This document shows, in pieces, positions 39,111-55,078 of a stretch of 55,719 nt of DNA. The stretch's first letter is position 1. Each line of letters begins with the position of its first letter. The position numbers and the translations under genes are program-made. The notes beneath the pieces were generated by a model. The model ran no database searches. It had not been told where the DNA came from and saw only the letters and a list, made by a program, of their open reading frames with translations. The stretch comes from an uncultured Gammaproteobacteria bacterium (lineage in GTDB: Bacteria > Pseudomonadota > Gammaproteobacteria > UBA4575), in contig CAJQLY010000048.1 in assembly GCA_905479295.1 (NCBI GenBank), forward strand, positions 1 through 55,719, read 5' to 3'.

Positions 39111-39749
39111 TTAAACCTGGCTACGCTTACTTTTCAGCCACTTTAAAATAGGCTGCCATTGTTCTCTATCCATTGCACTTGCTGCTGGACCTAGCTCAAA
39201 GATACCCAAGCCACGATCAGCTGCACGGACATAATTTTGGCTATCTCGTAGCGTCGTTAGAAACGGTATCTTTTGTTTACTGAGAAACTCTTCAAGCTCA
39301 GCACTGATATTAGTAATGCTACGGCAACGATTAGCAATCAACGCGATCTTAGCTTTTTTTTGTGCTACTGGTGCGCAGCTTTTAATTTCTTTAATGAAGT
39401 TACTAGCTGCTCGCATATCAATCGGCGATGGTAATACGGGGATCAGTATGGTCTCTGCTTTTCGTACCAAGGTAGTCAGTTCTGCACCATGTACAGCGGC
39501 GGGCGCATCCAGTATGACGATATCGGTTTGACGCTTCACTCTGCCTGCATTACGTTGATAGCCAGCAATGCCTGTTATTGGTGGACGTGCAGAAGAACGT
39601 TCATTTAGCCAAGCTAAACTACTCGCCTGTGGATCGTAGTCAACCAAAGCTACATTATTTTGCTGACTAGCGAAGTAGCTTGCTAAATTAGTTGCCAAGG
39701 TTGTTTTACCTGAACCGCCCTTAGCATTTAACACCATGATATGACGCAT
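39111..39749 (-). CDS. Orphan ParA/MinD-family ATPase
   Basis: A 212-residue deviant Walker A ATPase: MVLNAKGGSGKTTLATNLAS (signature Lys in KGGSGKTT), a switch-I-like ALVDYDPQASSLAWL, and DIVILDAPA for Walker B. It lacks the N-terminal DNA-binding helix of chromosomal ParA and has no adjacent ParB; the canonical parA-parB pair is at 53381-55078. Such orphans position cargoes such as chemoreceptor arrays, pili or carboxysomes in other bacteria, but nothing here shows which. A good GAGAGG ribosome-binding site precedes the ATG. Confidence 0.88.
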   Translation of the reverse strand: MRHIMVLNAKGGSGKTTLATNLASYFASQQNNVALVDYDPQASSLAWLNERSSARPPITGIAGYQRNAGRVKRQTDIVILDAPAAVHGAELTTLVRKAETILIPVLPSPIDMRAASNFIKEIKSCAPVAQKKAKIALIANRCRSITNISAELEEFLSKQKIPFLTTLRDSQNYVRAADRGLGIFELGPAASAMDREQWQPILKWLKSKRSQV

Positions 39750-43115: not shown

Positions 43116-44186
43116 TTATAGCACTGCTTTAACCTGTTGATGTTCCACGTGGAACCAATTAACGGCATCTAAACTAGGGTATTTAACAGATTCTGCACTA
43201 ACCGTAGTGATTAAGGTCTGACTATCTAGTTCTTGTAACATCGACAAGATTCGTTCACAGCGAAGCGTATCTAACTCAGCAGGCAGTTCATCCACTAAAT
43301 ACAATGTTGTGCGTTCTTGCGTCTCATATAAATACAATGACTGCGCTAATCGCATAGCGACAGCTAATATCTTTTGTTGCCCACGAGAGCTACTTTTAGA
43401 AAATTTACGGCCTTGCCAGTAAATCTGTAGCTCTGCGCGATGTGGCCCAACACCGCTAAAATTAGGTAGTGGTTGTTGCTGTAACTCTAGCTGTAATTGC
43501 TCTGCTAAAGGTTTACCCTCCTTCCACCCCCCTTGGTACTGTAGATCGATCTCAGCACCCAAGGCTAATTCATCACAGATATAATTCACTAACGGGGTTA
43601 ATTCCTCACAATAATGACGTCGGTAGGCATCGATACGCTCGCCGCTCTCTGCCATCGGTCTATTCCAAGGACTCGCATCCATCTGTTCTTTCAAACATAA
43701 ATTTCGTTGCGCTAAGGCTTTGCTATAGATCTGCAGGTGTCTTCGGTACTCAGGTTCCACATGGAACATACCCCAATCTAAGAACTTACGGCGTTCTACA
43801 GGACCACCCATGACTAATTGGAAAGATTCTGGATGAATCGCTAACACAGGTAGTCGCTGCGCTAGCTCAGACCAACGCTTTACCACTTGGCCGTTACACT
43901 TAATCTGTGTGTCTTTTGAATCGCGTAGTACGCCTAGGCGATCGGCACTACCATCATCCTGTTGCAATTGAGCGGTAACCATGACCTTTTGCTGGTCATG
44001 CTGCACCATATCGCTGAATTGTGCACCACGAAAACTTTTACCACGACTGAGGAAATCGATTGCTTCTAAAATACTGGTTTTACCCGCCCCGTTTTGACCG
44101 TAAAAAACCGATATTCCAGGTTCCAGATCAAGTGTCAGGTCGTTAAAGCATCGCAGGTTTTGGAGTGTTATCTGACTAAGATGCAT
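43116..44186 (-). CDS. recF: DNA replication and repair protein RecF
   Basis: RecF is an SMC-like ATPase that helps load RecA at gaps. It has Walker A FYGQNGAGKTSILEAIDFLS (residues ~29-48), the signature region FSKSSSRGQQKILAVAMRLAQS and Walker B LYLVDELPAELD. The 356-residue length is normal. It starts seven bases after dnaN. Its C-terminal coding region holds a perfect parS-like palindrome (NWFHVE codons), and a second near match lies within the gene. Confidence 0.97.
   Translation of the reverse strand: MHLSQITLQNLRCFNDLTLDLEPGISVFYGQNGAGKTSILEAIDFLSRGKSFRGAQFSDMVQHDQQKVMVTAQLQQDDGSADRLGVLRDSKDTQIKCNGQVVKRWSELAQRLPVLAIHPESFQLVMGGPVERRKFLDWGMFHVEPEYRRHLQIYSKALAQRNLCLKEQMDASPWNRPMAESGERIDAYRRHYCEELTPLVNYICDELALGAEIDLQYQGGWKEGKPLAEQLQLELQQQPLPNFSGVGPHRAELQIYWQGRKFSKSSSRGQQKILAVAMRLAQSLYLYETQERTTLYLVDELPAELDTLRCERILSMLQELDSQTLITTVSAESVKYPSLDAVNWFHVEHQQVKAVL
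43141..43156. promoter_or_regulatory. parS site (ParB centromere), perfect palindrome, inside recF
   Basis: TGTTCCACGTGGAACC contains the 14-bp perfect palindrome GTTCCACGTGGAAC, the sequence known as the chromosomal parS in Pseudomonas. It lies within recF about 2.3 kb from the candidate origin, and a parA-parB pair is encoded about 10 kb away. ParB would nucleate here and spread. Confidence 0.9.
43753..43768. promoter_or_regulatory. Second parS-like site inside recF (one mismatch)
   Basis: GGTTCCACATGGAACA equals the reverse complement of the 43141 site except for one central base (A for G). It is 612 bases from the first site, also in coding sequence. Binding strength relative to the perfect site cannot be judged. 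Confidence 0.7.
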
Positions 44187-45288: not shown

Positions 45289-45341
45289 ATCTATAGTTAT
45301 AGAGTATTAGTATTGTTATTATTATTAAGCTACCACTATTT

Positions 45342-45350
45342 TGTGGATAA
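45342..45350 (-). promoter_or_regulatory. DnaA box, perfect consensus
   Basis: TGTGGATAA, the reverse complement of TTATCCACA, next to the most AT-rich stretch of the candidate origin. Confidence 0.85.
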
Positions 45351-45483
45351 CTAAATAATTCCGTTTAAAATCAATTATTTAACCGTTATTTTGCTGTGTA
45401 TATCAGGGTATAGTCTCAGCACAAATCAAGATAAGTCGGTGTAACTAAAAGCGAATATAAGGCTTACCCACTTCATCCCCAGT

Positions 45484-45492
45484 TTATCCACA
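45484..45492 (+). promoter_or_regulatory. DnaA box, perfect consensus
   Basis: TTATCCACA, immediately beside the dnaA stop codon and facing the other perfect box 133 bases away. Confidence 0.85.
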
Positions 45493-45493
45493 G

Positions 45494-53380: not shown

Positions 53381-54169
53381 ATGAGCAAAATAATCGCGAT
53401 TACTAACCAGAAAGGTGGTGTCGGTAAAACCACAACCACGGTTAATCTGGCGGCGACCTTGGCGGCGACTAAGCGCCGGGTGTTGCTTGTGGATATGGAT
53501 CCACAGGGTAATGCGACTATGGGATCGGCGTTAGATAAACGTCTGATTGAACATTCTGTCGGCGATGTCTTGCTTGGAGATATGGATATACGAGAAGGCA
53601 TGTTGGCCAGCGAACAGGTTGGTTATCATGTACTGCCATCGAATGGTAATTTGACCGCTGCCGAGGTGGGTTTATTACAAATGTCGGAACGTGAATATCG
53701 TCTGCAGCAAGCATTGCAGCAAGTTAGTGACGATTTTGATTATATTTTGATCGACTGTCCGCCCTCTTTGAATATGTTGACGGTTAATTCTTTGGTTGCT
53801 GCGGGCAGTGTCCTGATTCCAACCCAGTGTGAATATTATGCCCTGGAAGGTCTATCGGCCCTATTAGGCACGATTGAGCGTATACGCGAAGGTGCCAACC
53901 CTAATTTACAGGTCGAGGGTGTCTTACGGACTATGTTTGACCCTAGAAATAATCTCTCAAACGACGTTTCAGCACAGTTAATGGCGCATTTTGGTGATAC
54001 CGTCTATCGCACGATTATCCCTAGAAATGTGACTTTAGCCGAGGCCCCTAGTCACGGCTTACCGGTTATTCATTACGATAAAACTTCACGCGGTGCCCGC
54101 GCTTATTTAGCACTGGCAGGTGAAATGCTCCAACGTGAGGCCGCACTCACCGAAGCAGTTACGGAATAA
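53381..54169 (+). CDS. parA: Chromosome-partitioning ATPase ParA (Soj)
   Basis: ParA moves the ParB-parS complex, using ATP-dependent non-specific DNA binding. The deviant Walker A KGGVGKTTTTVNLAATLA, switch I VDMDPQGNATMGS and Walker B DYILIDCPPSLN are clear. At 262 residues it is the short chromosomal type, without an N-terminal HTH. It is preceded by an AGAGG ribosome-binding site, and parB begins three bases after its stop. The parS sites are in recF. Confidence 0.97.
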   Translation: MSKIIAITNQKGGVGKTTTTVNLAATLAATKRRVLLVDMDPQGNATMGSALDKRLIEHSVGDVLLGDMDIREGMLASEQVGYHVLPSNGNLTAAEVGLLQMSEREYRLQQALQQVSDDFDYILIDCPPSLNMLTVNSLVAAGSVLIPTQCEYYALEGLSALLGTIERIREGANPNLQVEGVLRTMFDPRNNLSNDVSAQLMAHFGDTVYRTIIPRNVTLAEAPSHGLPVIHYDKTSRGARAYLALAGEMLQREAALTEAVTE

Positions 54170-54172
54170 ATT

Positions 54173-55078
54173 ATGGCCGCTAATAAAAAGCGTAAAGGAT
54201 TAGGCAGTTTGGGCATCGATATCTTGTTATCAAGTCCAGCTAAGGTTGCCAGTAAAGCAGAAGAGCCGCTGCAAGCAACGTCGGCGAGTATGGCAGATCA
54301 GCTGAGTATCGCGATTGATTTAGTCGACCGCAGCCCATTTCAGCCGCGCCAGACGATGACCGATGAAGGTCTGCAGGAATTAGCCGACTCTATTCGTAGC
54401 CAAGGCCTGATTCAACCGATTGTTGTACGTAAAACAGCTGATCGTTATGAATTAATCGCCGGTGAGCGCCGCTGGCGTGCAGCGCAAATAGCAGGTCTGC
54501 AAGATATCCCTGCAGTGATCAAGCAGGCCGATGATCAAGCTGCAGCGGCAATGGCGTTAATTGAAAACCTACAGCGTGAAAACCTAAATCCAGTAGAAGA
54601 AGCGGTCGCTATCGCTAATCTCATCGCACAATTTAATTGGACGCATCAAGAAGTTGCCGAGGTGTTAGGAAAAGCCCGAGCCACTGTGAGTAATAGTTTG
54701 CGTCTGTTGGAATTGGCCGATAACGCACGGCAGATGGTGAATGATCGTCTTTTAAGTATGGGCCATGCCCGTGCATTGCTCTCATTGCCACTAGAGCAAC
54801 AGAATACAATAGCGAAAGAGATAGCAGCGAAGCAGCTTTCAGTGCGACAAACTGAGCAGTTAGTGAAAAAGTTGTTAGCACAGAGCGGTAAAAAGACTAA
54901 GCCCAGTGCTCTGGAAAAAGATCCAAATATCCAAGCATTGGAGAACCGATTGGCTGATCGGCTTGGTGCTGCTGTCGGGATACGTAGTAATGAAAAAACA
55001 GGTAAAGGCAAGATAGAGATCCCGTTTAATAGTTTAGATGAGCTAGACGGTATCCTAAATAAACTGAACAATGGCTAA
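54173..55078 (+). CDS. parB: Chromosome-partitioning protein ParB (Spo0J)
   Basis: ParB is a CTP-dependent DNA clamp that loads at parS. The N-terminal ParA-interaction region KRKGLGSLGIDILL is followed by a CTP-binding ParB/Srx domain with SPFQPRQTM and AGERRWRAAQIAGLQ, ALIENLQRENLNPVEEA and a helix-turn-helix (VAEVLGKARATVSNSLRLLEL). A C-terminal dimer domain completes it. The 301-residue length is typical. Its target sites are probably those at 43141 and 43753. Confidence 0.97.
   Translation: MAANKKRKGLGSLGIDILLSSPAKVASKAEEPLQATSASMADQLSIAIDLVDRSPFQPRQTMTDEGLQELADSIRSQGLIQPIVVRKTADRYELIAGERRWRAAQIAGLQDIPAVIKQADDQAAAAMALIENLQRENLNPVEEAVAIANLIAQFNWTHQEVAEVLGKARATVSNSLRLLELADNARQMVNDRLLSMGHARALLSLPLEQQNTIAKEIAAKQLSVRQTEQLVKKLLAQSGKKTKPSALEKDPNIQALENRLADRLGAAVGIRSNEKTGKGKIEIPFNSLDELDGILNKLNNG

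Follow-up and report, generated by a model that had tools for sequence, protein, structure and literature searches.

The window, i.e., the whole stretch of 55,719 nucleotides analyzed here, comes from an uncultured gammaproteobacterium and carries recF flanked by gyrB and dnaN. Two parS-like sites lie within this gene, site C near the end of the RecF reading frame and site M in its middle (Table 1). An earlier note made from the sequence had placed both sites inside the recF coding sequence, about 2 kb from the origin, with parA and parB at 53-55 kb. These placements hold: the reading frame of 43116-44186 matches TIGR00611, parA and parB were located at 53381-55078, and the distance fits if oriC is the gap between dnaA and dnaN, in which TTATCCACA boxes stand at 45342 and 45484 (the number of TTATCCACA across the window is at chance level). 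An orphan ParA-like ATPase (39111-39749, minus strand) lies apart from the parA-parB pair and has no adjoining parB; its top NCBIfam match, ParA_partition NF041546, is under the cut-off.

Table 1. Features of the recF, origin and parA-parB regions in the window
Feature	Position	Strand	Remarks
recF	43116-44186	-	356 aa; TIGR00611, 328 bits
Site C (C-terminal recF parS)	43141-43156	-	16-mer TGTTCCACGTGGAACC; core GTTCCACGTGGAAC at 43142-43155
Site M (middle recF parS variant)	43753-43768	-	16-mer GGTTCCACATGGAACA; core at 43754-43767
dnaN-dnaA gap, candidate oriC	45289-45493	n/a	DnaA boxes at 45342-45350 and 45484-45492
parA	53381-54169	+	PF13614
parB	54173-55078	+	ParB_N, HTH_ParB and ParB_C domains

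In the frame of recF, site C is translated as W-F-H-V-E-H (RecF 344-349) and site M as M-F-H-V-E-P (RecF 140-145), the peptide FHVE being common to both. Compared with the 16-bp palindrome TGTTYCACGTGRAACA, site C has an exact 14-bp core and one outer mismatch, and site M has two mismatches, one of which falls in the 14-bp core, the other 13 core bases being intact. The earlier description of site C as a perfect parS is right for the core, which is a perfect palindrome, but not for the 16-mer, and site M, described as one central base off its own reverse complement, differs from it at four positions of the 16-mer (the central pair and both ends). The core of site M reads GTTCCACATGGAAC on the plus strand and GTTCCATGTGGAAC on the recF strand. 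The codon for His142 in this site is CAT in the window and CAC in relatives; the center on the recF strand is CATGTG, and CACGTG is intact at site C only.

Four matches to TGTTYCACGTGRAACA with up to three mismatches occur in the window, against a mean of 0.72 in the shuffled window (at least four in 2 of 100 shuffles). A search of the window's assembly (1.15 Mb, 77% complete, 60 contigs) with up to one mismatch, which the earlier note had proposed, yielded one exact GTTYCACGTGRAAC, namely site C, and three one-mismatch matches, site M among them. Looser matches carry no weight, because with up to two mismatches the total is about the same as in the reversed control (15 and 13, respectively). 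In Spo0J/ParB systems, the palindrome GTTYCACGTGRAAC is read by the helix-turn-helix protein ParB. The marks of a chromosomal parS are found here: the TGTTYCACGTGRAACA palindrome at both sites, with the above mismatches, few sites per genome near oriC (one exact in 1.15 Mb of a 77% complete genome), and parA-parB near oriC within the same genome. Compared with such parS in general, those of the window's class differ in that two of them lie in recF and have their codons fixed.

In Pseudomonas aeruginosa, recF contains parS1 and parS2 (PMC5521831, PMC3909081); parS1 is TGTTCCACGTGGAACC and parS2 is the perfect palindrome TGTTCCACGTGGAACA, and ParB binds to both (PMC4368675). Specific binding and spreading of ParB, a further mark of a chromosomal parS, are documented for this species (PMC4368675, PMC5098823). 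Statements on this species, here and below, follow excerpts of the cited papers. The window resembles P. aeruginosa in having two parS inside recF near oriC, with RecF 141-144 and 345-348 both framed as FHV[E/K], and its site C is a one-outer-mismatch site, as are parS1 and parS4. It differs in the core change of site M, by which one of the two CACGTG centers is not intact, and in that no counterparts of the further strong sites near oriC, parS3 and parS4, were seen in the window. Based on the numbering from oriC and on Pseudomonas-like loci, parS1 would correspond to site M and parS2 to site C; parS1 is identical to the commonest one-mismatch form of site M in the class, the imperfect base being C at position 16. 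In the excerpts of the literature searched, parS within recF is stated for P. aeruginosa only (the parS survey of Livny et al. 2007 was outside this scope).

Occurrence of the sites in the class

The class was sampled evenly with 185 genomes, of which 184 gave a RecF-like match and 152 a match over the family cut-off. The alignment contains 150 of these 152 (the window and 149 loci, L074-L222), the 33 genomes without RecF over the cut-off being excluded; the remaining two, presumably G108 and G147, each carry a divergent recF with a pair of parS at it. A site was counted as present when it was within two mismatches of TGTTYCACGTGRAACA at the aligned position. Another 58 loci, found by a genome search, were kept out of the class counts because that search was partly seeded by FHVE peptides, and only two of them (L016 and L017) were used, as near relatives of the window.

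Site M is present in 128 of the 150 RecF genes and site C in 121 of 145 (five rows do not have the full 16-mer there). Both sites occur in 109 rows, exactly one in 28 and neither in 10, and three rows have site M and no data for site C. The spacing of the sites in the 109 two-site genes is 600-669 bp, with a median of 621 bp. Because the genomes are related, such counts are not independent trials. On a RecF tree built without the site columns (FastTree, a rough tree of a deep family), site M changes state 18 times (22 rows lack it) and site C 17 times, so that the absences are mostly scattered. Among the one-mismatch forms of site M, 46 of 56 have C at position 16; this base is the middle one of the codon that follows and makes it Pro (CCx) rather than His/Gln (CAx).

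Across whole genomes, GTTYCACGTGRAAC was found in 157 of the 185 (333 sites in total; exactly two in 110 genomes) and is absent from 28, and the reversed-pattern control was nearly always zero. In the 150 recF genomes, 233 of the 291 sites are within the recF reading frame, and 84 genomes have exactly two sites, both in recF. The 28 genomes with one recF site contain at least two canonical sites in 16 cases, one in 10 and none in two; in seven one-site genomes (L095, L151, L163, L194, L157, L160 and L099), an extra site lies 4-32 bp beyond the recF stop. A clear ParB match was obtained in seven of the 10 genomes with neither site, and six of these seven have one to three canonical sites elsewhere, whereas G148 has none. 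In an alignment of 49 rows, RecF proteins share 27-46% identity with that of the window. Judged from these sequences, the embedding of parS sites in recF is a very old arrangement that is common to most of the class, and this class-wide scale is what is new relative to the known case of P. aeruginosa.

Codon choice at FHV[E/K]

FHVE could be a conserved motif of the RecF protein, its likeness to parS following merely from the peptide and from codon habits. Phe141 is invariant and His142 is kept in at least 90% of a 50-row RecF alignment, and Phe141 is conserved even in RecF proteins that have lost site M, so some protein constraint exists at this site. Synonymous positions, however, are fixed to a degree that the codon usage of the individual genes falls far short of explaining. 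At 124 FHV[E/K] peptides in position M and 118 in position C, with expectations taken from each gene's own codons, His is encoded by CAC in 235 of 242 cases (expected 103), Val by GTG in 237 of 242 (75), Glu by GAA in all 193 (101) and Lys by AAA in all 49 (30). In a scan of 163 RecF codon columns for synonymous bias, the top seven were all parS codons (143 V, 347 V, 142 H, 346 H, 140 V, 144 E and 348 E; z = 15.2-9.0), and the next column had a z of 8.2. The earlier note had suggested that codon choice here is doubly constrained and that recF codons be compared in relatives; across the class, the codons for F-H-V-E/K are indeed nearly fixed to the parS spelling at both positions. A coupling between the Phe codon and the E/K residue (Fisher p = 8e-9 for M and 0.0015 for C) was dropped as proof of selection on the palindrome, because base composition alone could produce it.

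AlphaFold2 models the RecF of the window (mean pLDDT of 95.8) with the M peptide where a helix (129-143) ends and the C peptide within a strand (342-348), so FHVE would seem to have no common role in the fold. Neither position carries FHV in any of 20 RecF proteins from other classes of the phylum. In two genomes that have lost the usual middle site, L193 (at 4519) and L205 (at 4224), parS lies in recF in a different reading frame and encodes an unrelated peptide. Together with the genomes described below, which retain parS DNA without recF or lack the motif along with ParB, the synonymous codons and the frame shifts led us to reject FHVE as a protein motif, an explanation that we regard as very improbable.

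Genomes without recF or without ParB

The set examined for loss of recF contained 38 genomes: the 33 that have no RecF above the cut-off, G108 and G147 with their divergent RecF, and three that bear recF (G060, G080 and G120). Canonical sites were found in 16 of the 33 and were lacking in 17. In 13 of the 16, the sites are inside the gap between dnaN and gyrB, which is about 74-274 bp long in 12 genomes and about 880 bp in one (L249); a RecF-like stretch was looked for in the L249 gap and not found. In L254 and L263, the sites adjoin gyrB and dnaN is outside the stretch. L250 has no dnaN-gyrB site, since its only canonical sites (7085, 7274 and 8199) lie next to parA-parB, within or at gidA and rsmG. 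The recF-less members of the class (L245-L248, L252, L253 and others) are like the window in having parS between dnaN and gyrB, often paired, but they differ in the absence of recF and in the distance between the sites, which is 26-43 bp in seven pairs versus the 600-669 bp of the recF pairs. Upstream of gyrB, L254 also contains a tandem array (1244-1858) in which a 43-bp unit recurs about 14 times, with an exact GTTTCACGTGAAAC in 12 of the repeats.

Two families, f158 (the one closest to Escherichia coli) and f157, served as controls for the loss of ParB. Nine genomes have a RecF with 76-96% identity to the E. coli protein; eight of them gave no ParB match and the ninth a weak one on a second contig, and the two f157 genomes gave none. 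Both sites are eroded in all of these genomes and in E. coli K-12: the M peptide reads FHN or FHHH, and the C peptide FTVEK, FAVDQ, FRVEQ or FRVEH, FQVD, or FEVN. At the RecF C-terminus of two ParB-less relatives of E. coli (L300 and L302), TGTTCCGCGTGGAACA is one base off parS and, to judge from its sequence, is likely a fossil centromere. Within a single genus, the sites are decayed in G163 (no ParB; 1.0 Mb in one contig) and both are kept in G025, which has ParB. Two fragmented drafts have sites yet no ParB match: G121 with a perfect C site, and G120 with one canonical site in recF and another outside it. The small order of G046, which is probably Francisella-like, was considered as a ParB-less control and not used; parS is absent from its 28 RecF loci, and the two genomes by which the class sample represents it gave weak ParB matches only. 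Six genomes of f160 (L304-L308 and L310), which appear from RecF identity, genome size and kinship to be Vibrio-like and which possess ParB, have lost site M and carry canonical sites elsewhere; their C site has CAT for CAC, with GTG and GAA kept.

Core variants and the strength of site M

Six genomes have both recF sites but no canonical site, and in all six, which contain ParB, the cores of the two sites have changed in a matching manner. Both cores are CACATG in G022, CACGTA in G156, CATATG (palindromic) in G089 and CATGTG in G170; those of G003 are CACATG and CATGTG, a single site read in the two directions, and those of G029 are TACGTA and CACGTA. Such concerted changes, as read from the sequences, fit one protein reading both sites. 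A comparison of 52 ParB sequences (32 + 20) revealed that GHAR of the helix-turn-helix region is replaced by GHAK in G014, G156, G022, G029 and G008 (L342, L343, L351, L377 and L378); in four of the five genomes, one or both recF sites have an altered core. A single ParB residue as the cause is nevertheless contradicted by G014, whose cores are unaltered, and by G089, G170, G003 and G005, whose sites are altered despite a GHAR ParB; the association is a lead only. GKAR, the reading in the ParB of the window, also occurs in G041 and G175, both of which have intact sites.

These two members of the window's family also have CAC at His142, and so do the nearest relatives, L016 (97% RecF identity) and L017 (91%), in which both sites are intact. 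Because the nearest relatives keep CAC, CAT at His142 is a private synonymous change of the core. It might instead be an assembly or strain-level error in the metagenome bin, with site M really intact, as the CAC of L016 and L017 and the state of the assembly (77% complete, 60 contigs) could suggest; we consider this unlikely. Codons for the same residue differ from those of the window at 108 of 344 positions in L016 and at 141 of 322 in L017, and given the former number a single C-to-T change is unremarkable.

CAT and the base in the Pro codon together make the two mismatches of site M to the perfect 16-mer. In P. aeruginosa, binding by ParB is best at perfect sites, falls slightly with one mismatch and is weaker again in vitro with two, and an intact CACGTG core matters (PMC4368675); a two-mismatch parS-like sequence is unbound in vivo (PMC5098823). 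Since the change falls in this core, it is plausible, by analogy with these binding data, that site M is weaker for ParB loading than an intact site, as the earlier note had supposed. A more radical view is that site C alone acts in the window's genome and site M is a dead relic. One strong site near oriC is enough for segregation in P. aeruginosa (PMC4368675, PMC5098823), and the six Vibrio-like genomes without a middle site carry CAT in site C. The other 13 core bases of site M are intact, however, half-sites of GTTCCAC are bound in P. aeruginosa (PMC10419367), and G170, which has ParB and no canonical site, keeps the identical core variant at both recF sites, so that we hold the view of site M as dead to be possible but somewhat doubtful. 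From the sequences, site C would be the working centromere, and site M, probably weakened by the recent change from CAC to CAT but with one half-site intact, may be on its way out.

Interpretation of both sites as part of a parABS system is strongly supported, and we assign a probability of about 0.93 to the reading that sites C and M are centromeres for the loading of ParB in the chromosomal ParABS system and have been inherited within recF since ancient times. The palindromes would be bound, strongly at site C, by ParB, whose gene is about 10-11 kb distant; ParB would load onto the flanking DNA, and ParA would move the loaded DNA along with the origin region. The DNA motif, rather than the RecF protein, would set, at two unrelated positions of the protein, the codons and part of the residues (FHV, then E or K). 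Since parS is inside recF, a bacterial centromere and a piece of protein code would share the same bases.

It is also probable, although we hold this wider reading less firmly, that the ancestral centromere of the class was a parS pair in the dnaN-gyrB interval, carried in recF and dictating FHV[E/K] as long as ParB is present; such a pair would outlive the loss of recF, erode in the absence of ParB and change both cores in concert, presumably with the specificity of ParB. On this reading, the class-specific FHVE motifs of RecF would be a translated centromere, and annotators and structural biologists should not take FHVE in RecF of this class as a purely functional protein motif. In short, a cis-acting DNA site can apparently hold parts of a protein gene constant, both codons and residues, throughout an entire bacterial class, for which natural controls exist in the lineages lacking the protein gene and in those lacking the DNA-binding protein. 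Because one gene displays both sites, recF may serve as a ready comparative test bed for the co-evolution of ParB and parS.
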